The notes under the pieces were generated by a model. That model did not search any database. It had not been told where the DNA came from and saw only the letters and a list, made by a program, of their open reading frames with translations. From positions 1 through 27,297 of the IMG/VR virus record IMGVR_UViG_3300032093_000687: DNA of 27,297 bases. One strand, given 5' to 3'. Each line of letters opens with the position of its first letter. The first letter of the stretch is position 1. Source of the stretch: a virus. Positions 1 through 24,453 of the stretch are shown in pieces. The position numbers were made by a program, and so were the translations under genes.

Positions 1-3000
1 ACTATCGTTTTGCAAATGGTCAGTTGGTGGATGAGCAAGGCAATCCTATTTCACTTGGTCCTGACATCCCGCTTCAAGCGATGCCAGATGGCACATCGAT
101 TTCTGTTGACACACGAATCGCTAGAAACGCCGATGGATCACCTCTCATCCTTTCTCCACGCGAGTCTAAACGCCGCGCAAAGAAGCGTGGTGAAGCTATC
201 CGAAAAGTTATTGACGAAGCAGCAGACGATGACTCTGGCGTGAGATTGGAAGACACAGGCAACGGCAACTATCGCGGAACGCTTTCTCCAACGCAGATTG
301 CAGCAATCAATGCATTGCCAAACGATCTCGTTGCTCCATCACTTAAACGCAAGATTGCATTCTTTAACGATATCTTGGGGCGCAAAGACGGCAGTATCGT
401 TGAGATCGAATACCAAGCTGCGATGCGTGATAAAAAATATCGTGCATTGCAACCGCAGATGAGAACTGAAATCCCGATTGGTTTCCAGTTCGACAAGCAA
501 GGCAATTTCTTGATGACCACCATGTCCATGTCGCGGATGCACGATAAGGCGAATGCTTGGGCGGCAAAGCGTCCTCGCAATCTTCGTTTATGGGGTGGAG
601 ACATGACCAAGTTCTGGGATTCGGTCAGGCAGTATCTGCACAATCATAAAGCAGGATTACAAGGTCACATTAATCTGCATCCAGACCCAGCTATCGCAAT
701 GGAGATGAAGAATCGCATCAACGATCTTTTCAATGTCTATCGCAAAGAGACTCGCGAGGCTAACCCCGAACGCACGACTCTGCCAAAACGCCGAGGTCAA
801 GACAGCATGGATGTGGTTATCCGTTCACGCCGAATGGATCGAATCAATAGCTATGACGAGACGGCAATGCCCAAAATGCCGTTTCAATATGAACTAGCAG
901 TCCAAAACTATCTCCCGGCTGAAAATCCGTTTGCTGAATTACAAACCCCAGAGCAGTTCGCAAGGGGCATGGAGATCGATACCGAACTAGCCAGACTCGC
1001 CGCACAAGGTAATGTCGAGCCTCTAGAACTGCAATTGCACGAACAAGACCTATTGCGTCCTGCCGAGTATGTAGATGTTCAAGACGGCAAACTTCGCGTT
1101 CGCTCCATGTTTGATCCTACGCAAGCCGTGTTCGATCCAATGGAAAGCGAACCAGAAAAACCATCGCTTGAAGTTGTAGAGACTGAAGTCGAGATGCCGC
1201 AGGAATTAGGTAAAATTAAATCAAAAGTTCCTACGCAAGAGGAACTGGATGCTATGAAGGAAAGATTGCCGAAATATAGCACAAAATTAGAAGATATAAA
1301 TGAAACGCAAAAGTATATTTTAATTTATGATGAAAATGGAAATGATGCTGCTAGTGCAGAAGTTTCGTTTAATAAAGATAACAATTCTTTAGATATAGAT
1401 TGGATTGGCACTAACATAAAAAATAAAGGTTTTGGAAGTGCAATATATCGCGAAGTTGCAAGGTATGCTCAACAACAAAATTTTGATACTATTGAAGGAG
1501 ATATTGTTAGTGATAAAGCACTAAAACGAAGAGAAGAATTGCTTCCAACTATTTCTAAAACAAAAAAGCCACTTGGTGATGACGAATATTCTACAACATT
1601 AGTTAGCAAGGTTCCATCTGATATTAGATTCATGCCTGCCGCCGAGATCGAAGCACCATCAGGAGAGCGTGGATTCCAGAGCAAGTTGCAAACTGAAATC
1701 CAACGCAAATTCCAAGGCGCGAATGCAACGCCAGAGCAGTTGAAAGCAGTTCTTGGTAATCCTCAAAATGTCAAACCTGAAGAGATCAAGTGGTCAGGCG
1801 TGATGAACGAGATTGATCGTTTGGCGCAGGAGAATAACGGAAAGGTTCCCGTGCAGGCATTGGTGAATTACCTGCGTGATGAAGGGCAAGTTAAATTTGA
1901 GGAAGTTACCATTGGAGATGATAATGGAATTCAAAAAATTGCTGATCAATATAGAATTAAAATTGAAGAGGAGTATGGGGAAAAAGCATTTTACGATGAA
2001 TTTGATGAGCCTCTTGAATTAGATGAAGTTCCGCCTCAATTATTAGACGCAATATATAAAGCAGGGAAAAAGCCTGATCCAAGATATGCTCAATACCAAC
2101 TCCCCGGTGGGGAAAACTATCGCGAGGTTGTTTTGTCGATGCCAAGAAAAACTCTGCAACCAACTGATGCAGAAGTTAAAGAATATTACGGATTACTACC
2201 TCGCAAAGAAAATTTAACTGGCGATGAATTAGCACCAGACATTGGAGGTTCTATTACAAATATTGTTAATTCAGATGGTCGAATACTTACCTACTATGAT
2301 CAAGCCGACCCAGTTAAACGCAGAGAATTAGCCCAAAGATGGATTGAAGGTAATAAATCCATGTATCCAGATGCGCGATTGGAAGAAGATACAGTTAAAG
2401 GAACCCCAATCTGGCGAGTAAACATCACGCCAGAGATGGAGAATGTCGTTCGCGCAGGGCAGATTCAGTTCATGCCAGCAGATGCTGAAAATATAGAGTT
2501 TGCAAATCCTCCATCCGAACAAGAAGCAATTGATGCATTAAGTTCAAATAAACGCAATTTCTTTGGATTACATAGAGATTTAGAAGATGGTTATCCAGTT
2601 GGATTGAGAATTGATATTCCAGCATTTACATCAAAAGGCGTGTATGTTGTAACTGTTCACGAAAAGAAAAAAGGAAAAGAAAAAGGTCAGGTTGGTGACA
2701 GAATTGGATATGATACTATTGCAAAAGTAACTGATCCTGTTTTCTTTTCTAATGAAATTGGTGCAAAAAAAATAAAATCTGGAGAAGCAAACAAATTCCC
2801 AGTAGCAACAGTTGAAGGTAAATTTAATTCATCAAGAGATATACCAGAAGATATTAATGAATGGACTCCAGTTGGATATAATCCAAAAGATCATTCTTAT
2901 TTTTACGATAAAAGAAATGAAGAACCAGTTTTATCTGGAGATGAAGCAATTTCTGTAGGAAATACTGTTTTTGTCAAAAATCCTGTATATGGGAATAGAT

Positions 3001-5930
3001 CGGATTTTGCATTCATGCCATCAGAGCAACCGCAAGGCATGGAAGATGTGGAAATGCCACAGACATATCGGCGCATCTCTGACATGATTCCTCCATTGCA
3101 AGGCGTTGAGCCTCCTGTTCGTGGTCGAGTTGAAGAACCAGCATTGTCTGGGCTTGCTATGCCAGCAGGACAAATTCAATTCATGCCAGCGGAATCGACT
3201 TCTAAAAAATCAAAAGAACAAAAGTTAAAAAATACATTAAAAGTGCGAATGACAAGAAAAGCACTTACTGATGCTGCATTGAGTCAAGAATCGTGGAAAG
3301 ATTGGTATAAAGAGCATCAGGATGTTCTTGATGATTTTTTTGGAGACTATGCAGAACTATTTCAAGAAATTCTTGCCGTTACTTCTCAAGCCGCATCAGT
3401 AAAAGCAAATGTTGGTCTTGCTTTAAAAGCATTTGGTCAGTTAATGCGTGGTGAAGAATTTGATGCTAGATTGCGTGGAGAGGAAAAGGGAGGATATCTT
3501 GATGGGGTTATCAACAACCTCAATGCCATCAAAAACAAAACTGATGTTTCAGGTAGGAAGATTTCAAATTACAAAGCAGCAAACGAAGGAGATGCAAGTC
3601 GAGTTGTTGTTGATCGTCACATTACCCGCTTGTTGTTTGGAGTAGACACTCCAAGCAAGGCGCAGTATGATTTAGCCGAAAAAGTATTAACAGAAATTGC
3701 CAATGACATTGGTTGGGAACCTTCACAAGTGCAAGCTGCACTATGGGCGCACTCAATCGTACTGTCAGGAAAAAAACCAGAATCTTATGGAGCGTACCTT
3801 ACAAAACTTGAGTCTGCCAAACTCACAAAACGAGAACTCGCAAGTGGACTCACAGGAAATCAACTCACCAGACGAATTGGAGAACTTGCTTATGCAGGCG
3901 CAGGAAGCATTGAATCTGGCAAAGGCAGGGGGAGATATTCTCCAATTAGCGAAGTTGAAATTAACGGAGTTAAGCAAGTAAGATTTCCTACAGATATCAG
4001 ATTCATGCCGTCTGGAGAAATCCCGACTGCTAAAGAGGTTCTTAAAAAGCCTCTTGAAAATCTTCCGTTACGCGAGGCAAGCACTTGGACAGAAATACAA
4101 GAAGCACCTATCATTACACTAAAAGACCTTATTGGGAAAAAGGTATTCCCGACTTTTGCTGATATTACATCTGCTGGAAGAGTATTCAAAGGAATTGATT
4201 CAAGTGAACTTTTAATTCCAATTGAAACTCATGGTGGTCCTGAATGGCCTTTGATCCAAGCAGAAAAAGTTGGAGAAGAAACCAATGTTTGGTCAAACCA
4301 AGGTGCTGGCGTAACAACAACAAAAGCAAAACGAGCAGATGAAGGAGCCATAATGCTTGTCACGCTTATGGATAAAAATGCCCATATGTCAAATACTGAA
4401 GTTGCGAATGCAATTATTGGAACAAATTTGGCATATGTAAGAGATGAAAGAATTACTGCAAATAATTTAAAACTTCTAAACAAAAAAATTAAATCAGAAG
4501 AAGTATTTGATGACTTTGTAGGAATCGACTCTCCTGATATTAATGATTATGTTTCAAAACTTCCATTCCAAGGTGATAAAAGTAGAGCAAGACTTGCTAC
4601 CATTTTGTCATTAAAAGAGTCAGAAGAACTTGGTGCAGCAAATGTTCAGCGCATTCTTGATGAGATGCGTAGTCCAGAATTTGAAGGTGGCAGGATTGGA
4701 GATTCTGTAATTGCTCTGCAATTGTCCAAAGGCGCACCAGTTGTTAAACTGTCAGATTCTGGTGGAATGACTCATCCTTCATATCAATATGCTGTACGAG
4801 GAAAGGTAATTGGAAAATTTGCTCGTCCTATAAATGCTGAAATGATTTATGATGATTTCATTGCACAAAGAAGAGCAGAAGGCAAACCGCAAAAGGGAGA
4901 TCGCAGGGCAATTGATCTTGCAAAACCAGTTCAAGTTATAACAGAACAAATTGCAAGCCGCATACCGCAAACTCCATACAAATATTTAAAATCAGCGCAA
5001 CACGCTAAATTGTTAAAGTATGCGCTTGAAAATAAATGGAAAGATTCAGGCACTGCAAAAAATAAAGGTGGAATTTCTCCAGCAGAATTTATTGACACTT
5101 TAAATTCAAGCGAAGCAAAGGTTGCTCTTAATGATTACACTCTTGATTCAGTAAAAAAAGAAATCAAAGATGGTAAATTAAATTTGTATCAACTTGGAGA
5201 CTCTAAAGTCTTTTTTGGGACAAAGAATACCAACCCTGCAAGCGACTATGGATTAGACCCGAAAGACTACGGGTTTGGTGAAAATGAGAAAACGCTAACA
5301 TTGGTATTGAATGCCGAGCGTGGGACCGCTGGCATGGGAGATGCCATTATGATGAAAGCATTGTCAGAAGGCGTGACTGCTCTCGATTGTTTCGCGATTA
5401 AAAACTCAAGATACCCTGATGGTATGTTGCCTTCATTGTACAAGCGATTCGGATTTGAGGTTGTCGGTGAAATCCCATTTGACCCGCAATACTACACGCC
5501 ACAAAAATTGGAAGACATAAAATTGTTTTGGAAAAATAATGGTTGGGACGAATCTACTGGACTTCCTTCCGTTGTTTTGATGAAATGGAAAGGAAATGAA
5601 AATGACCGAACAGGAACCCTACGAGATATTGCTGGAAAGAGTCCGACAGGTATTCGGGAACGAACTGAACTCGTTGTCGAAAACGCAAGACGCGATTCTG
5701 AACGGACTGATATTGGACAGAGTGGAGTCCCACAAGGGGGATTACAGCAAGGTGAGTCTGGACGAGGTGGAGGGAGTGCGGGAGATGCTGTACAAAGAAT
5801 TCAGCTTGGCAGAGGCACAATAAATGCAATCCAAGAATTGCTTGGAATGAATGATGCTGAACTTAAAAATTTAGGGATCGATCCAACGCAAATTAAAGCA
5901 ATCAAAAAAGCAGTAGGGATGTCGCAATAA
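1..5930 (+). CDS. Giant modular phage polyvalent protein, 5' truncated by window edge
   Basis: The frame is open to the left edge (in-frame residues Y-R-F-A-N-G-Q-L precede the first TTG at 24), so the start lies outside the window; residue numbers here count from that TTG. The 1,968 visible residues are a chain of modules, as in phage polyvalent proteins thought to be packaged and injected. Visible modules: unrecognised N-terminal region 1-390; GNAT-like domain about 425-515 with an N-K-G-F-G-S acetyl-CoA loop; region 640-815 with LPGGENYREV and ITPEM motifs; region 830-1000 with GYNPKDHSYFYD; a helical region 1060-1320 resembling DUF7178; region 1330-1650; a second GNAT-like region about 1700-1860 with G-M-G-D-A and L-Y-K-R-F-G-F-E; and a Gly/Gln-rich tail. 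Five FMP[AS] motifs separate modules. No signal peptide or membrane segment was seen. Domain names are inference from motif resemblance; that this is a phage polyvalent protein is fairly certain. Confidence 0.8.
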   Translation, partial: YRFANGQLVDEQGNPISLGPDIPLQAMPDGTSISVDTRIARNADGSPLILSPRESKRRAKKRGEAIRKVIDEAADDDSGVRLEDTGNGNYRGTLSPTQIAAINALPNDLVAPSLKRKIAFFNDILGRKDGSIVEIEYQAAMRDKKYRALQPQMRTEIPIGFQFDKQGNFLMTTMSMSRMHDKANAWAAKRPRNLRLWGGDMTKFWDSVRQYLHNHKAGLQGHINLHPDPAIAMEMKNRINDLFNVYRKETREANPERTTLPKRRGQDSMDVVIRSRRMDRINSYDETAMPKMPFQYELAVQNYLPAENPFAELQTPEQFARGMEIDTELARLAAQGNVEPLELQLHEQDLLRPAEYVDVQDGKLRVRSMFDPTQAVFDPMESEPEKPSLEVVETEVEMPQELGKIKSKVPTQEELDAMKERLPKYSTKLEDINETQKYILIYDENGNDAASAEVSFNKDNNSLDIDWIGTNIKNKGFGSAIYREVARYAQQQNFDTIEGDIVSDKALKRREELLPTISKTKKPLGDDEYSTTLVSKVPSDIRFMPAAEIEAPSGERGFQSKLQTEIQRKFQGANATPEQLKAVLGNPQNVKPEEIKWSGVMNEIDRLAQENNGKVPVQALVNYLRDEGQVKFEEVTIGDDNGIQKIADQYRIKIEEEYGEKAFYDEFDEPLELDEVPPQLLDAIYKAGKKPDPRYAQYQLPGGENYREVVLSMPRKTLQPTDAEVKEYYGLLPRKENLTGDELAPDIGGSITNIVNSDGRILTYYDQADPVKRRELAQRWIEGNKSMYPDARLEEDTVKGTPIWRVNITPEMENVVRAGQIQFMPADAENIEFANPPSEQEAIDALSSNKRNFFGLHRDLEDGYPVGLRIDIPAFTSKGVYVVTVHEKKKGKEKGQVGDRIGYDTIAKVTDPVFFSNEIGAKKIKSGEANKFPVATVEGKFNSSRDIPEDINEWTPVGYNPKDHSYFYDKRNEEPVLSGDEAISVGNTVFVKNPVYGNRSDFAFMPSEQPQGMEDVEMPQTYRRISDMIPPLQGVEPPVRGRVEEPALSGLAMPAGQIQFMPAESTSKKSKEQKLKNTLKVRMTRKALTDAALSQESWKDWYKEHQDVLDDFFGDYAELFQEILAVTSQAASVKANVGLALKAFGQLMRGEEFDARLRGEEKGGYLDGVINNLNAIKNKTDVSGRKISNYKAANEGDASRVVVDRHITRLLFGVDTPSKAQYDLAEKVLTEIANDIGWEPSQVQAALWAHSIVLSGKKPESYGAYLTKLESAKLTKRELASGLTGNQLTRRIGELAYAGAGSIESGKGRGRYSPISEVEINGVKQVRFPTDIRFMPSGEIPTAKEVLKKPLENLPLREASTWTEIQEAPIITLKDLIGKKVFPTFADITSAGRVFKGIDSSELLIPIETHGGPEWPLIQAEKVGEETNVWSNQGAGVTTTKAKRADEGAIMLVTLMDKNAHMSNTEVANAIIGTNLAYVRDERITANNLKLLNKKIKSEEVFDDFVGIDSPDINDYVSKLPFQGDKSRARLATILSLKESEELGAANVQRILDEMRSPEFEGGRIGDSVIALQLSKGAPVVKLSDSGGMTHPSYQYAVRGKVIGKFARPINAEMIYDDFIAQRRAEGKPQKGDRRAIDLAKPVQVITEQIASRIPQTPYKYLKSAQHAKLLKYALENKWKDSGTAKNKGGISPAEFIDTLNSSEAKVALNDYTLDSVKKEIKDGKLNLYQLGDSKVFFGTKNTNPASDYGLDPKDYGFGENEKTLTLVLNAERGTAGMGDAIMMKALSEGVTALDCFAIKNSRYPDGMLPSLYKRFGFEVVGEIPFDPQYYTPQKLEDIKLFWKNNGWDESTGLPSVVLMKWKGNENDRTGTLRDIAGKSPTGIRERTELVVENARRDSERTDIGQSGVPQGGLQQGESGRGGGSAGDAVQRIQLGRGTINAIQELLGMNDAELKNLGIDPTQIKAIKKAVGMSQ
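1629..4009 (+). repeat. Five dispersed FMP seam repeats (nucleotide core TTCATGCC)
   Basis: The octamer TTCATGCC occurs in frame at 1629-1636, 2469-2476, 3012-3019, 3180-3187 and 4002-4009. It encodes F-M-P inside the peptides DIRFMPA, QIQFMPA, DFAFMPS, QIQFMPA and DIRFMPS (residues 534-539, 814-819, 995-1000, 1051-1056 and 1325-1330). Each copy ends one module and starts the next. Phe is TTC at all five, although the AT-rich modules mostly use TTT. Whether the conservation acts at DNA level (recombination seam) or protein level (linker, cleavage or binding site) cannot be told from this window. Confidence 0.8.
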
Positions 5931-16935: not shown

Positions 16936-17463
16936 ATGAGCAAATATCAAATTGACCAAGAGGGAACATACAAAGGAATCGTCGTTGAACCAATGTATGA
17001 ATGGCTAGGCGAAGGCAAAGGCGGATCGCGCTATGTCTGCGTTCCAGTTCAGATAACAGAAGGCAGCGAGAAAGGGAAAACCATCAATTGGTATGGCAAC
17101 CTCGGCAATGATGTCGGCAGGGATGGCAAAACAAAAACAGAACGCACAGTTGAAACTCTAGAAAATGCATTTGGAATCAACTGGGACTGGAACAACATAA
17201 ATTGGGCAGGAGCATCTGTTGAAGTCGTAGTCTCGGAGTATAACGGAAAACTCCGAGCGCAATACCTCAATCCACCTGACAAGCCTCGTCTCACATCAAC
17301 TGATAACGAAGCAAAAAAAGCAGAGGCACTAGAGAAATCTAAAGAGATCGCAAACGAACTTCTTGTATCGTCTCCTCGTCGCAAATCTAACGCTAAACCT
17401 GCAATCAAAACTACGCCTTCAGTTAAGACTCACGATGATGAAGGCGTAGAAATTCCCTTCTGA
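16936..17463 (+). CDS. ssb: Phage single-stranded-DNA-binding protein
   Basis: The 175-residue protein has a beta-rich OB-like N-terminal region (Y-K-G-I-V-V-E-P-M-Y, Y-V-C-V-P-V-Q-I-T-E-G, I-N-W-Y-G-N-L, W-A-G-A-S-V-E-V-V-V-S-E-Y, Q-Y-L-N-P-P; about 10-118). A flexible Lys/Ser/Thr linker ends in D-D-E-G-V-E-I-P-F. The acidic tail ending I-P-F is the known SSB peptide that recruits replication and repair partners. The N-terminus belongs to a phage type rather than classical bacterial SSB, so the call rests on both parts together. It is followed directly by a 51-aa gene (TGATG overlap). Confidence 0.78.
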   Translation: MSKYQIDQEGTYKGIVVEPMYEWLGEGKGGSRYVCVPVQITEGSEKGKTINWYGNLGNDVGRDGKTKTERTVETLENAFGINWDWNNINWAGASVEVVVSEYNGKLRAQYLNPPDKPRLTSTDNEAKKAEALEKSKEIANELLVSSPRRKSNAKPAIKTTPSVKTHDDEGVEIPF

Positions 17464-17705: not shown

Positions 17706-18107
17706 ATGAATTGGACGCATGAACAACTCAAAAAGCTCGGTTACCACAGACACCCGGACGGGAACTATTACCCTGACCCTCCATCTCACAGGGTACTTGA
17801 CGCCCAGCCTCAACACGATCCTGTCAAACCATTGGTCCCATCTACACAAGCACAAACAAAAAGCAAAACTCGCGTTACTCTCCACATTGAGCGAGTTAGC
17901 ACTAAACTCCAAGACTTCGACAATTTCGTCGGAGGAACAAAACCACTTACCGATCAACTTCGATACTCTGGACTCATTCCTGATGACGATCCCGAATCAA
18001 TCACCGCACATTACAAACAACAAAAGTGTAAGCACAAAAGAGACGAGAAAACCATCGTCCAAATCGTCTACAACCCCCAACCATCATCCACCCGCAAACC
18101 CGCATAA
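17706..18107 (+). CDS. RusA-like Holliday junction resolvase (frame A)
   Basis: The C-terminal half has the RusA core: R-V-T-L-H-I-E-R-V (strand), L-Q-D-F-D-N-F-V-G-G-T-K-P-L-T-D-Q-L-R-Y (acidic active-site region about 69-86), S-G-L-I-P-D-D-D-P-E-S-I, and a final basic strand. RusA enzymes cut four-way junctions in recombination and packaging, which fits the RecT/exonuclease/SSB context. The N-terminus (MNWTHEQLKKLGYHRHPDGN) is Pro/Gln/His-rich and is not the usual RusA beginning. The usual beginning is encoded in the overlapping +1 frame. A start at 17706 without a Shine-Dalgarno is the only ATG option. Confidence 0.75.
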   Translation: MNWTHEQLKKLGYHRHPDGNYYPDPPSHRVLDAQPQHDPVKPLVPSTQAQTKSKTRVTLHIERVSTKLQDFDNFVGGTKPLTDQLRYSGLIPDDDPESITAHYKQQKCKHKRDEKTIVQIVYNPQPSSTRKPA

Positions 18108-18135
18108 ACACTACACAAACACAACTGCGAAGTAA
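17719..18135 (+). CDS. Overlapping frame B with RusA-like N-terminal half (138 aa)
   Basis: This frame overlaps frame A almost completely. Its first half reads G-T-I-T-L-T-L-H-L-T-G-Y, then P-S-L-N-T-I-L-S-N-H-W, then a Lys/Leu/Ala helix (H-K-Q-K-A-K-L-A-L-L-S-T-L). That is the order expected at the start of RusA-type proteins (I-T-L ... P-S-x-N ... helix). The second half is Ser/Thr/Asn/His-rich and looks unselected. It could be a real overprinted gene, half of a frameshift product with frame A, or a remnant. Stop TAA 18133-18135 is followed directly by a hairpin. Confidence 0.45.
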   Translation: MNNSKSSVTTDTRTGTITLTLHLTGYLTPSLNTILSNHWSHLHKHKQKAKLALLSTLSELALNSKTSTISSEEQNHLPINFDTLDSFLMTIPNQSPHITNNKSVSTKETRKPSSKSSTTPNHHPPANPHKHYTNTTAK

Positions 18136-18182: not shown

Positions 18183-18641
18183 ATGAGTCAAGACAAACCT
18201 GAAGAAAATTTAGAGAAATCTGAAAAAAAAATTACAGGCAGACCATGCGAATTCTCACAAGAAATTGCTGACGAAATCTGTAACAGATTAGCAAAAGGCG
18301 AAACGCTTCGCACCATCATCGCTTCTTCAGAACATCTGCCAGATCGTACCACAATCTATCGTTGGATGCGCTCAAATGAATCCTTCTGCAACCAGTACGC
18401 ACAAGCGCGCGCAGAGCAAGCCGATTACTACGCAGAACTTATAGTAGACGAATCCTACTCTTCGCATGACGCAGGCATAGGCAGGCTACGGGTTGATGCG
18501 CTCAAGTGGGCAGCATCCAAAATGGCTCCAAAAAAATACGGAGAGAAGATCGAGATCGAGACTGCACAACCTCTCACATTGGCTTTCCAGCTTCCAACAC
18601 GCAGGATTGAGCTAGAGGAGAACAAGCAACTTGAGAACTGA
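18183..18641 (+). CDS. terS: Terminase small subunit-like protein
   Basis: After a charged, disordered start, G-R-P-C-E-F-S-Q-E-I-A-D-E-I-C (19-33) and L-R-T-I-I-A-S-S-E-H-L-P-D-R-T-T-I-Y-R-W form an HTH of the small-terminase type. F-C-N-Q-Y-A-Q-A-R-A-E-Q-A and R-L-R-V-D-A-L-K-W-A-A-S-K-M-A-P-K-K-Y-G follow, both typical of Sf6-like TerS. It recognises phage DNA and feeds the large subunit. Here the large subunit is 5.8 kb downstream rather than adjacent. The leader 'cacttctaaaATG' has no Shine-Dalgarno. Confidence 0.8.
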   Translation: MSQDKPEENLEKSEKKITGRPCEFSQEIADEICNRLAKGETLRTIIASSEHLPDRTTIYRWMRSNESFCNQYAQARAEQADYYAELIVDESYSSHDAGIGRLRVDALKWAASKMAPKKYGEKIEIETAQPLTLAFQLPTRRIELEENKQLEN

Positions 18642-19509: not shown

Positions 19510-19760
19510 CACTACAAGAAAAACTAGAAGAACACGAAAGCGATGCAGGTCTAATCCTCGCAGATGGGTTTGACGATGCTTTTATCGGGACTGGATGGCA
19601 ATGCGGCAATGAGCCTTGTGCGGTCTACGATAGGGAAAAGTGCATTGAGATACTTGTCGAGCAAGGGATGGAGCATGATGATGCTGTTGAGTATTTCGAG
19701 TTTAATGTTGCAGGAGCATATGTTGGAAAACAAACGCCGATATTTTTAGAAAGAATATGA
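19506..19760 (+). CDS. Conserved phage protein, 'FNVAGAYVGKQTPIF' family (84 aa)
   Basis: ATG 19506 overlaps the previous stop (ATGA) and removes 17 unlikely N-terminal residues of the longer frame. Motifs are F-D-D-A-F-I-G-T-G, P-C-A-V-Y-D-R-E-K-C-I-E-I-L, H-D-D-A-V-E-Y-F-E-F-N-V-A-G-A-Y and V-G-K-Q-T-P-I-F. This is a very common phage family of unknown function. It is coupled to the glycosyltransferase by another ATGA overlap. Confidence 0.78.
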   Translation: MTLQEKLEEHESDAGLILADGFDDAFIGTGWQCGNEPCAVYDREKCIEILVEQGMEHDDAVEYFEFNVAGAYVGKQTPIFLERI

Positions 19761-20875
19761 GATACCACATACTGGGGCTACCCCACACAGTAACAAGCAA
19801 AGAGTACAACGCCTGCGCCTACACGCAGAAGGTTGTCAAATTCGGGAAGATGATGACTAGGCGCGGCCATGAGGTCTTGCACTATGGTCACAGAGATTCG
19901 GTGCTGGAGTGTACTGAACACATTCCTGTCTTGGAGAACGAGGACTGGCAGGTTGCCTATGGAGACCATGACTGGCGCAAGACCTTCTTCAAATTCGATG
20001 TCAACGATCACGCCTATCGTACATTCTACGCTAATGCGATCAGGGAGGTAGGGCTTCGCAAGCAGAAGCATGACTTCATTCTGCCTTTCTGGGGCAGCGG
20101 AGTTCGACCAGTCTGCGATGCCCATCCAGACATGATTGCGGTGGAACCCGGCATTGGTTATGCGGGTGGGCATTGGTGTCGGTGGAAAGTGTGGGAGTCC
20201 TATGCAATCTATCATGCCTATTGCGGATTGCAGTCTGTTGGAACCTGTAGGCAGGATTGGTACGATGTGGTGATCCCGAATTACTTTGATCGTGAGGACT
20301 TTACCTATCGAGGTAATGACGAGAAGGAAGACTACTTCCTGTATCTTGGACGAGTCTATGGAGGCAAGGGATGTGATGTGGCATTTCAGGCAGCAGAACG
20401 AGCAGGAGTGAGGTTGTTGGTAGCAGGGCAGAAAGAGGAAGGCTACAAGTTGCCTGACCATGTCGAGTACATTGGTTATGCCGATACGGAGAAGCGTCGA
20501 GAACTGATGAGCAAGGCCAAAGGGTCACTCATTCCTTCGCAGTATGTTGAGCCATTCGGTGGGGTCCAGATCGAGAACCTTTTCTCTGGTACGCCAACGA
20601 TAACGACAGATTGGGGTTCGTTCGCGGAGAACAATCTGCATGGCATTACAGGCTATCGGTGTCGAACGATGGGAGACTTTGTGGATGCGATCAAGGCTAT
20701 CCAACAAGGCGCGATCTCTAGTGAATCATGCAGACTCTGGGCAGAAAACTTCTCATTGGAGAAGGTTGCGCCTATGTATGAGAAGTATTTCTCGGATGTG
20801 CTGGATGTGTACGAAGGCAAGGGATGGTACGCAGACGGGAATGGACTTGAAGCAATGACAAGAATGTTACCCTAA
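19757..20875 (+). CDS. Family 4-type GT-B glycosyltransferase (372 aa)
   Basis: The N-terminal half begins M-R-Y-H-I-L-G-L-P-H-T. The C-terminal half has Y-F-L-Y-L-G-R-V-Y-G-G-K-G-C-D-V-A (GT4 'GR...KG' start), L-L-V-A-G-Q-K-E and the catalytic-type E265-P-F-G-G-V-Q-I-E273 followed by S-G-T-P-T-I-T-T-D-W-G. E-x7-E is the retaining GT4 signature. Donor and acceptor are unknown. It heads a cassette with a methyltransferase and a second glycosyltransferase joined by one- and four-base overlaps, so the three probably build one modification, on DNA, the virion or the host surface. No transmembrane segment is present. Confidence 0.85.
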   Translation: MRYHILGLPHTVTSKEYNACAYTQKVVKFGKMMTRRGHEVLHYGHRDSVLECTEHIPVLENEDWQVAYGDHDWRKTFFKFDVNDHAYRTFYANAIREVGLRKQKHDFILPFWGSGVRPVCDAHPDMIAVEPGIGYAGGHWCRWKVWESYAIYHAYCGLQSVGTCRQDWYDVVIPNYFDREDFTYRGNDEKEDYFLYLGRVYGGKGCDVAFQAAERAGVRLLVAGQKEEGYKLPDHVEYIGYADTEKRRELMSKAKGSLIPSQYVEPFGGVQIENLFSGTPTITTDWGSFAENNLHGITGYRCRTMGDFVDAIKAIQQGAISSESCRLWAENFSLEKVAPMYEKYFSDVLDVYEGKGWYADGNGLEAMTRMLP

Positions 20876-21450
20876 TGCCATTTTCATCTTCTACATTTGA
20901 TGCTGTATTGGCATCGCATTTGATCAAGATTGAGGCTAGGAGCGTCTTGGATGTTGGATCAGGTGCTGGCAAGTACGGAAGGTTGCTGAAGCAAGTATTG
21001 CCGAATACAAGGATTGAAGGCATTGAACCTACGAAGGAGTACATTGAGCAGTACAAGTTGCGGGATTGCTACGATGAAATCCATGAGATGCGATTGAGCG
21101 AGTATTGTGATCGACATCCAAGCAAGCGTCACGAAGTTGTAATCTTTGGGGATGTGCTAGAGCATTTCTTTAGATCGGAGGCAATCGACTACATTGATTA
21201 TTTCCTTTATCGATCGGAATGGGTGATTGTGATTTGGCCGACAATGATGCCACAGGATGATGTGGGAGGAAATGCGTTGGAGATTCACAAGAGCAATTTT
21301 GGTCTTGGAGACTTGGTTGGTAAGTTCGATGTGCATCGTTACGAGAAAAAGTTTGGATGGTTCCATTGGAACGATGCAGAGATGACGCATTGCGAATACA
21401 ACTATGCGGTGCTGCGAGGGTATGTGACCAAGAGGAATGTGAGTCTATGA
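20875..21450 (+). CDS. Class I SAM-dependent methyltransferase (191 aa)
   Basis: Motif I is V-L-D-V-G-S-G-A-G-K-Y-G (24-35), the acidic ribose-binding residue is E51 (I-E-G-I-E-P), and the motif II-III region reads V-V-I-F-G-D-V-L-E-H (88-97). After that comes I-W-P-T-M-M-P-Q-D-D-V-G-G-N-A-L-E-I-H-K-S, a pattern shared with methyltransferases encoded beside phage or surface-glycan glycosyltransferases. Substrate is unknown; sugar O-methylation is a reasonable inference from the neighbours. It starts within the TAATG overlap of the upstream gene. Confidence 0.85.
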   Translation: MPFSSSTFDAVLASHLIKIEARSVLDVGSGAGKYGRLLKQVLPNTRIEGIEPTKEYIEQYKLRDCYDEIHEMRLSEYCDRHPSKRHEVVIFGDVLEHFFRSEAIDYIDYFLYRSEWVIVIWPTMMPQDDVGGNALEIHKSNFGLGDLVGKFDVHRYEKKFGWFHWNDAEMTHCEYNYAVLRGYVTKRNVSL

Positions 21451-22349
21451 AACGAGTGCTGTTCTTCACACAGAATCGATGGGCATTTGGATCGATCCAT
21501 CATGGGTTGGCAAAGGAGATGTGGAAGCATGGGCATTACGCGAATCTGTTGGACTGGACGATTGGATATACAGTTGAAGAGTTCAAGTTGATGCGGGATT
21601 CGTACGATGTGTTCGTGACGATGCCAGATGCGGTTTTGTCGCTTCATTACAAGTATGGAGTTGAGTTGGAGAGGATCGTTGCTGTGGCGCATGGACAATG
21701 GGACATCCTGTTGGCAAAGCAGCAAGCCGATCAGGACTTTTACCCATTGCTAAAAGGGTTTGGTGTGATCAGTCAGGTGCTGAAGAGGAAGTGTGAGGAG
21801 TGGACGATATCTAGGGTTCCAGATGTTGTGGAATTAGGAATCCATACAAGCGTGTATAGTGGGTCAATACCTGATAGACTAGAGGTGGTGGGATATGGTG
21901 GTAGTGGAGAGACGAAGAACTGGTTTGGTCAAGAGATCAAAAGGCCGGGGTTGGTTGAGCGAGTTGTTGAAGGTGCTGGGTTGGAGTTGAGGAAGCATCA
22001 GTTCTACAATCACCTTGCGATGCCGGGTTACTACAGGCAGGTAGATGCTGTTGTGATGAGCAGCATTGAAGAGGCTGGAGGCTTGCCCATGATGGAGTGT
22101 GCGGCGGCAGGCAGGTTGCCTATTGGGACTCCTGTTGGGTACTTTGAAGAGAACGCAAAGAAAGGTGGAGGGGTACTTGTGCCGTTGGATGAAGAAGAGT
22201 TTTTGGCAACAACAAAATTGATCTTGAAAGATTTCAAAAACGATCCACGAGCATATCGACAGAAGTGTGAGTGGGTGCGTGAATATGCTATCCAAAATTA
22301 CGATTGGAGCGTAAAGGTTGGAGACTGGATAAATTTGTTATGCAAATAA
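21447..22349 (+). CDS. Second GT-B glycosyltransferase (300 aa)
   Basis: ATG 21447 (ATGA overlap) is chosen because it restores a clean Rossmann start (MKRVLFFTQNRWAFGS); the in-frame extension upstream is read-through of the methyltransferase. The C-terminal E209-A-G-G-L-P-M-M-E217 and G-R-L-P-I-G-T-P-V-G match the GT4 E-x7-E region. The gene is G-rich and favours TTG for Leu, unlike the replication genes, which suggests a separate origin for the cassette. Donor and acceptor are unknown. Confidence 0.78.
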   Translation: MKRVLFFTQNRWAFGSIHHGLAKEMWKHGHYANLLDWTIGYTVEEFKLMRDSYDVFVTMPDAVLSLHYKYGVELERIVAVAHGQWDILLAKQQADQDFYPLLKGFGVISQVLKRKCEEWTISRVPDVVELGIHTSVYSGSIPDRLEVVGYGGSGETKNWFGQEIKRPGLVERVVEGAGLELRKHQFYNHLAMPGYYRQVDAVVMSSIEEAGGLPMMECAAAGRLPIGTPVGYFEENAKKGGGVLVPLDEEEFLATTKLILKDFKNDPRAYRQKCEWVREYAIQNYDWSVKVGDWINLLCK

Positions 22350-22357
22350 AATAAACT

Positions 22358-22615
22358 ATGAAAGCAACACTAGAATTCAATCTTCCAGAGGAACAATGGG
22401 AGCATGAGTATGCAGTACACGGGGTAGATGCGTTATTGTTAATTAGCGATCTAGAAGGAGAACTGCGAGCGATGGTCAATGATGATTGCGGTGAGTTCAC
22501 GAAGTGGCGGAACGAGGACGAGAAGGAGTGTCATGGAGATTACGAAACGCTTCAGAGGGTCTGGGACTTTATCCTTCGCGAGAAGGAAAGAAGGAGGCTA
22601 CCTGAATTAATATGA
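22358..22615 (+). CDS. Conserved small phage protein, 'MKATLEFNLPEE' family (85 aa)
   Basis: The M-K-A-T-L-E-F-N-L-P-E-E-Q-W-E-H start followed by a short helix and L-E-G-E-L-R-A-M-V is a well-recognised phage family (strand, L-P-E-E, helix, L-R, helix) of unknown biochemical role. The leader 'aaataaaataaactATG' lacks a Shine-Dalgarno. It is coupled to the deaminase by ATGA. Confidence 0.75.
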   Translation: MKATLEFNLPEEQWEHEYAVHGVDALLLISDLEGELRAMVNDDCGEFTKWRNEDEKECHGDYETLQRVWDFILREKERRRLPELI

Positions 22616-23010
22616 CATGGATTGAATATGGAATGCAGTTGGCATTTGCCGCTGCGACGAAGAGCAAAGACCCGTGGAGGAAGGTTGGAGCGGTAGTATT
22701 CCGGAAGGACAACTCTGTTGCTGGGGTTGGGTACAATGGGTATCCGACTGGGATGTTTGAGGACTGGGATGACAGGGAAGGCAGGCGGAAGTTTGTGATC
22801 CACGCCGAGGCGAATGCGTTGAGGTATTGTAGGCCCGGAGAGGTGTGGTTGCTATGCTGTACTACACTTCCATGCAACGAGTGTTTGCGGAGTGCGGCGG
22901 CATATGGAATCAACACGATTGCTTATTCGGACAAGTACGAGAACGATCCGAGTACAATTGAATTGGCTTTTGAATTTGCGATTGAACTTGTATGCGCGAA
23001 ATCGATGTAA
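22612..23010 (+). CDS. dCMP/cytidine deaminase-like zinc enzyme (132 aa)
   Basis: The zinc-dependent deaminase signatures are complete: H64-A65-E66 (I-H-A-E-A-N-A-L) and P87-C88-N-E-C91. D-P-W-R-K-V-G-A-V-V and Y-N-G-Y-P-T-G match the dCMP-deaminase branch. Such enzymes convert dCMP to dUMP for thymidylate synthesis or clear modified cytidines. The domain is shorter at the C-terminus than typical dCMP deaminases. With the MazG-like gene it suggests phage control of the nucleotide pool. The 3' end overlaps the next gene by 19 bases. Confidence 0.85.
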   Translation: MTWIEYGMQLAFAAATKSKDPWRKVGAVVFRKDNSVAGVGYNGYPTGMFEDWDDREGRRKFVIHAEANALRYCRPGEVWLLCCTTLPCNECLRSAAAYGINTIAYSDKYENDPSTIELAFEFAIELVCAKSM

Positions 23011-24223: not shown

Positions 24224-24453
24224 ATATCCTTACGAAAGCATCTAATTTCGCGAAGAGTGCTTTTGCATTTGTGAAAGCTGGGTTGCCATGTGTGGACGAG
24301 CGAGAAATCGCTAGGAGGCTACGCATCTGCGCGGATTGCCCGAACTTTGATGTGGAAAAATACAATGGTGCTGGTGAATGCAAGATTTGCGGGTGCAACA
24401 TGGAAATCAAAACGATCATGGCTACGGAGAGTTGTCCTGAAGGAAAATGGTAG
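24220..24453 (+). CDS. Four-Cys zinc-ribbon phage protein (77 aa)
   Basis: The motif order is R-L-R-I-C-A-D-C-P-N-F-D, then G-E-C-K-I-C-G-C-N-M-E-I-K, ending E-S-C-P-E-G-K-W. This 'C-x-x-C ... C-x-x-C-G-C ... C-P-x-G-K-W' pattern is a common small phage zinc-binding protein. It sits immediately before terL (7-base overlap). Its position suggests a packaging or late-switch role, which is not proven. Confidence 0.75.
   Translation: MNILTKASNFAKSAFAFVKAGLPCVDEREIARRLRICADCPNFDVEKYNGAGECKICGCNMEIKTIMATESCPEGKW

Follow-up and report, generated by a model that had tools for sequence, protein, structure and literature searches.

Two overlapping phage genes that likely encode the halves of one RusA-like resolvase

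The window considered here, i. e., the complete 27,297-nucleotide stretch of the IMG/VR virus record IMGVR_UViG_3300032093_000687 (positions 1 to 27,297), contains two open reading frames, referred to as A and B, that overlap almost wholly, with frame B lying in the +1 frame relative to A and starting 13 nt later (Table 1). The locus is placed between recombination and replication genes, namely those for a RecT-like annealing protein, an exonuclease, a primosomal-type protein, and a DnaC-like loader, all upstream, and the terminase genes, the large subunit of which is found at 24447. Such a neighborhood is a usual place for a phage resolvase.

Table 1. Features of the A/B locus and the gene that follows it (positions in the window).
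Feature	Position	Strand	Basis
Frame A gene, putative RusA catalytic-half subunit, 133 aa	17706..18107	+	ORF, viral relatives, weak PHROG matches
Frame B gene, putative RusA N-half subunit, 138 aa	17719..18135	+	ORF, own-profile conservation, stop-free
ATGA: A start codon overlapping a B-frame stop codon; possible termination-reinitiation site	17706..17709	+	
Frame A N-terminal mini-domain MNWTHEQLxxLGYxxxPDGxY	17706..17765	+	A-frame constrained: codon-position entropy, invariant residues, model secondary structure
RusA N-half in frame B: strand TITLTLHL, PSLN, HW, Lys-rich helix to about SEL	17764..17898	+	Alignments
N-half motifs in frame B	PSLN 17803-17814, HW 17830-17835	+	
B-constrained stretch; frame A reads a proline/glutamine-rich linker, kept open	17766..17865	+	Entropy, substitutions, stop counts
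Dual-coding core: B helix end KLALLSTLSEL / first A catalytic-half strand TRVTLHIER	17866..17904	+	Profile-hit overlap, mixed constraint
RusA catalytic half in frame A	17868..18068	+	C-half profile match, E 5e-32
Catalytic motifs in frame A	DxDN 17913-17924, K 17940-17942, DDD 17982-17990	+	
Frame B basic C-terminal tail, overprinted on the catalytic half	17899..18132	+	Open, sequence not conserved
Terminase small subunit, directly downstream	18183..18641	+	phrog_1482, E 2.6e-37

An earlier note on this stretch, made from the sequence alone, had read the locus as a RusA-like resolvase split over two overlapping frames, with the usual RusA beginning in frame B and the catalytic half in frame A. 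Both statements held, as the motifs, the openness of the frames, and their conservation beyond the window were all confirmed. The catalytic residues of frame A (D70-x-D72-N73, K79, and D93-D94-D95) are invariant in 20 aligned relatives, as are T-P-S-L-N and H-W of frame B across the relatives aligned for that frame. The N-terminus of A contributes invariant positions of its own to the alignment of relatives (W3, H5, Q7, L8, L11, Y13, and G19).

When the frames of the window were searched singly against PHROG, the catalytic half alone was matched, and only weakly so, by the RusA-like families phrog_1682 (E 1e-3, 19.5 bits) and phrog_34 (E 5e-3), the former also being matched by 20 of 20 frame A relatives. 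A composite of frame B through its helix and the catalytic half of A, by comparison, matched phrog_1682 across both halves (29.4 bits, E 9.7e-7). Contiguous relatives, in which the N-half motifs lie in frame with the catalytic half, match the same families of RusA-like resolvases as the composites (phrog_1682, phrog_34, phrog_4632, and phrog_11894). Furthermore, contiguous relatives and composites were compared as a profile with the RusA of E. coli and 16 RusAs of Verrucomicrobiota, with one strict hit per locus, giving an E value of 1e-5 with DxDN, K, and DD in register; the DLDN..K..DD of E. coli RusA aligns with the catalytic motifs of frame A, and in global mode the alignment with RusA runs end to end.

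At its cut-off, the Pfam family PF05866 matched neither A nor B, nor the composites or the contiguous relatives, and no match to it was found in 12 phage records; the controls from E. coli, B. subtilis, and C. vibrioides were matched. Since none of these proteins or composites is scored by PF05866, membership in this Pfam family is not claimed. Searches of NCBIfam and Pfam and a sequence search of the PDB returned nothing relevant. In the BFVD, a relative of frame A with 40% identity over the whole length is present as A0A6J5LW61, labelled "uncharacterized protein". Structure prediction, which the earlier note had proposed as a check, was carried out for A and B alone and gave low confidence for both single chains (AlphaFold, pLDDT 61 for A and 64 for B). 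Low pLDDT was likewise seen in the linker stretch of A, and the N-terminal mini-domain of A is predicted as a helix followed by a beta hairpin (pLDDT 74-81). A Foldseek search with the frame A model found no RusA in the PDB, which is uninformative for half a domain. The 12 phage records, several of them 56-64 kb in length, contain no further match to the RusA profiles of the A/B locus, and the pair is therefore likely to represent the RusA-type resolvase of these phages, its nuclease activity being inferred.

Uncultured phages with the split layout form a large group, and at least part of it is linked to Verrucomicrobiota. With frame A as query, 80 viral loci were retrieved, ranging from 100% down to 42-45% identity, and frame B, assessed with its own profile, is conserved in 80 loci. 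The relatives inspected hold both frames, and within the family of the window B starts at a fixed +1 offset. The same layout is common to three contigs of Verrucomicrobiota MAGs, L092 (Terrimicrobiaceae), L093, and L094 (Chthoniobacterales). A search of 388 Verrucomicrobiota genomes with the catalytic half led to three far more divergent loci (L183, L184, and L185), where a PSLN/PSWN N-half again lies in the +1 frame. In the viral relatives L186-L213, PSxN occurs in the +1 frame in 27 of 28 and in frame 0 in none; the remaining one (L188) has a PSRN variant, also in +1. Groups within this set have quite different frame A N-termini.

In total, 159 distinct catalytic halves from IMG/VR and the Verrucomicrobiota genomes were classified with N-half and C-half profiles. 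The N-half was found in the +1 frame in 148 of them, in frame, i. e., contiguous, in seven distant relatives, and in the third frame in none of the 159; no N-half was seen in the other four, which are truncated or divergent. The ratio of 148:7 does not represent a natural frequency, as the queries were mostly split loci; the loci are also correlated by descent. The sample consists of metagenomic records only, no isolate was found, and INPHARED protein searches with A, B, and an L191-type A gave no match.

The geometry of the split loci is nearly constant. For 137 of the 146 split loci, the distance from PSxN to DxDN amounts to exactly 110 nt (36 codons + 2 nt; 17803 to 17913 in the window); the corresponding span is 50-69 residues in four contiguous relatives. 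In the split loci given as examples, the hits of the two half-domain profiles overlap by 10-28 nt, whereas contiguous relatives leave a gap of 30-78 nt between them. How often the split arose is left open, since a tree test did not reject a single origin (AU p 0.307) but the tree of the C-half alone places L184-L189 among the contiguous relatives, with weak support. One origin is thus possible, though not shown.

Both frames are under purifying selection in the relatives. The earlier note had suggested testing synonymous constraint across homologues, and this check found constraint in both frames, switching along the locus in the order A-B-A. Codon-position entropy, computed for 59 distinct loci of the window type, peaks at the third position of A from 17706 to 17765, moves to the first position of A (the third of B) from 17766 to 17885, and then returns to the third position of A. 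This switch was seen independently in the L183/L190 family, which was analyzed separately. In 41 near pairs, changes that are silent in B but not in A reached 2.63 times the expected number over 17766-17862, and those silent in A but not in B only 0.42 times, figures that reverse after 17905 (0.62 and 2.81, respectively); constraint is mixed in the dual-coding core.

Stop codons were assessed against a null model that keeps the A protein fixed and redraws synonymous codons. Frame B is stop-free over 17718-17904 in 59 of the 59 loci (16.4 expected) and over 17904-18021 in 58 (10.6 expected). Among 41 divergent representatives, B stays open over a 40-codon part of the catalytic half in 37 (10.6 expected), with nine +1 stops in this half as compared to 51.9 expected. 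As a control, other genes of the same loci gave a +1 stop ratio of 1.01, and the contiguous relatives had 19 such stops (21.8 expected). Conversely, none of the 41 representatives has a stop in frame A within the B-constrained stretch; the product of the individual chances is approximately 5e-31, although these chances are not independent. The same caveat applies to all stop and openness counts, as the loci are related.

Start codons for both frames were found in the 41 representatives. Of 85 window-type loci, 80 have RTGA at the A start and 25 an SD-like site ahead of A, and in none of the 85 was an SD-like site seen ahead of B. Because B lacks such a site and the A start overlaps a stop in 80 of 85 loci, termination-reinitiation at closely spaced starts is suggested; this is an inference, and how B starts is not known. 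The net charge of the B tail is positive in 37 of the 41 representatives (median +9). As the tail is basic and free in sequence, non-specific DNA binding is a plausible role, again an inference.

Several variants of the locus deserve mention. In L293 (L293:860-1400), frame B stops about 30 codons ahead of the catalytic half, and frame A has acquired an inserted, longer linker rich in glycine and lysine. This locus might be an intermediate between the contiguous and the overprinted layouts. A joined product of normal length could be formed here, although separate subunits fit just as well. In L185 (minus strand; relatives L186-L189), a Zn-ribbon-like CC..CPIC at the N-terminus of A replaces the WTHEQL mini-domain, and further N-termini occur in other groups. 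The short motif xxxLxxxGYxxxPDGxY/W is found at the frame A N-terminus of the window (17706-17765) and of L094, L184, L197, and L210, and hence recurs in otherwise divergent groups. The differing N-termini of A suggest an exchange of modules on the catalytic subunit.

We consider it likely that the two overlapping genes are co-translated and that their products, an N-subunit and a catalytic subunit, come together as a single RusA-like Holliday-junction resolvase. Conservation, frame-switching constraint, open frames, domain halves, geometry, and gene neighborhood are shown; the translation of both frames, the association of their products, nuclease activity, and a role in branch resolution are inferred, as the reading rests on metagenomic records without expression data and is supported by neither protein nor ribosome-profiling evidence. 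According to this reading, one mRNA region would serve both products, with A starting at the ATGA and B between a few and a few dozen nucleotides further into A. Frame B would give a small N-subunit built from the first strand, the PSxN loop, the HW motif, a long basic helix, and the basic tail at its end, and frame A a catalytic subunit with a variable N-terminal mini-domain, a flexible linker, and the DxDN...K...DD half. Association of A and B would rebuild the RusA fold, and the rebuilt resolvase may then resolve branched replication or recombination DNA before packaging. Two polypeptides with half a domain each would account for the openness of both frames along their whole length, for the selection on the N-terminus of A in its own frame, for B remaining open past the junction, and for the need to use the overlap twice to complete the fold.

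A bolder version, toward which we lean only slightly, holds that a single catalytic domain was broken into two subunits with permanently overprinted genes, that the tail of B was gained from the coding sequence of the catalytic half, that the layout has been stable over deep divergence, and that the N-terminal module of A was repeatedly exchanged.

The main rival is programmed -1 ribosomal frameshifting from B into A, which would yield a single joined RusA and leave the upstream part of frame A incidental or as a second product. In its favor, the order B then A corresponds to the common direction of phage frameshifts, the longer linker of L293 could give a joined product of normal length, and a one-line remark in a study on frameshift prediction (PMC10885494) counts RusA/RuvC among frameshifted genes. 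However, a canonical slippery heptamer was found in only 7 of 41 representatives, at differing positions, and none is conserved. The earlier note had proposed that a -1 shift around 17855-17875 would join the frames, which held only in part: the frames do join, but a complete RusA is not formed, because one set of bases, read in two frames, encodes both the last part of the B helix and the opening strand of the catalytic half of A. With 36 codons between PSxN and DxDN, the joined product is about 14 or more residues shorter than the contiguous relatives. In addition, it scores no better than A alone or falls below the composite: for the window, phrog_1682 gives 19.6 bits, the same as for A alone; for L191, 22.3 bits as compared to 30.8 for the composite; and for L094, no match to phrog_1682 (composite 17.5 bits) and 21.4 bits with phrog_34 (composite 23.1). 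Moreover, the N-terminus of A is constrained in its own frame, A is open through the stretch where B is constrained, and B is open far past the junction. Programmed -1 pairs such as those of phage tail assembly chaperones are a well-known example of overlapping ORFs read B then A in the -1 direction; unlike these, the A/B locus has no conserved slippery site, its joined product is incomplete, and its zero frame is open past the junction. Taken as a whole, we regard frameshifting as unlikely.

Similarly improbable is that frame A by itself is the functional enzyme, in which case its N-terminus and linker would stand in for the RusA N-half and B would be a separate overprinted accessory protein or a remnant. 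This view is supported by A being a complete ORF in 41 of 41 representatives and by A being the frame recorded in the protein database (the BFVD entry above). Against it, the RusA N-half motifs in B are kept under selection in the split families, the linker of A is free in sequence, and the N-termini of A are wholly different between families. A complete RusA in frame A alone, which would have refuted the split, was not met in close homologues, the relatives with a complete single-frame RusA being distant; nor is B unconserved or interrupted in relatives, the other observation that would have spoken against it.

Production of one continuous protein by double frameshifting from A to B and back to A would mirror the A-B-A pattern of constraint but is very unlikely, as A need not then stay open mid-locus, yet does so in 41 of 41 representatives, and half of the dual-coding core would be lost. 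Finally, a decayed or mis-sequenced RusA, caused by a frameshift mutation or an assembly error, could resemble the present arrangement in that early decay would also place a frameshift between two halves, but is excluded by the same frame relation in 148 distinct loci, the 110-nt geometry in 137, purifying selection in both frames, and the layout shared by the three Verrucomicrobiota MAG loci. Of the options raised by the earlier note, overprinted genes are hence supported, a frameshifted fusion is disfavored, and decay is ruled out.

The two-subunit reading invites comparison with known systems. As an activity, RusA stands for dimeric, metal-dependent cleavage of Holliday junctions, and for the A/B pair such nuclease activity is inferred only. 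The E. coli DLP12 RusA (b0550, PF05866) shares with the A/B locus a PSxN-type motif, the first strand and helix, DxDN...K...DD, and a phage location between replication and late genes; the A/B locus differs in using two overlapping reading frames instead of one and in adding the N-terminal mini-domain of A and the basic tail of B. The lambda Rz/Rz1 genes are a nested overlapping phage gene pair, and the likeness, which is untested, lies in a small ORF in the +1 frame of a larger one and in products proposed to cooperate. In contrast to Rz/Rz1, which are separate proteins, frames A and B hold halves of one ancestrally single catalytic domain.

No account of a RusA that is split, overlapping, or frameshifted turned up in the literature searches beyond the remark in PMC10885494. 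The usual explanation for overlapping genes is that a novel protein has evolved on top of an existing one. In the A/B locus, each frame encodes a part of the same ancient, homologous domain, and the origin thus resembles gene fission squeezed into an overlap. The reason for keeping the overlap, whether dosage coupling, assembly, or compactness, is testable. The "uncharacterized" frame A proteins of these phages probably represent only half of an enzyme, with the other half absent from the annotations, which would mean that resolvases are under-counted in these phages. The data suggest a two-part resolvase that has escaped gene finders.

The window contains further genes that caught our attention. 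Just upstream of the locus (16936-17463), a 175-aa protein without PHROG match is encoded where a single-stranded-DNA-binding or comparable replication protein would be expected. An open frame of 1975 aa that is cut at the window edge (3-5930) has a recurring IRFMP/IQFMP-type motif and is possibly a polyprotein-like or virion-associated fusion. Between the terminase subunits (19757-23010), glycosyltransferase-like genes at 19757 and 21357, a methyltransferase-like gene at 20875, and a deaminase-like gene at 22612-23010 were recognized, all by eye only.
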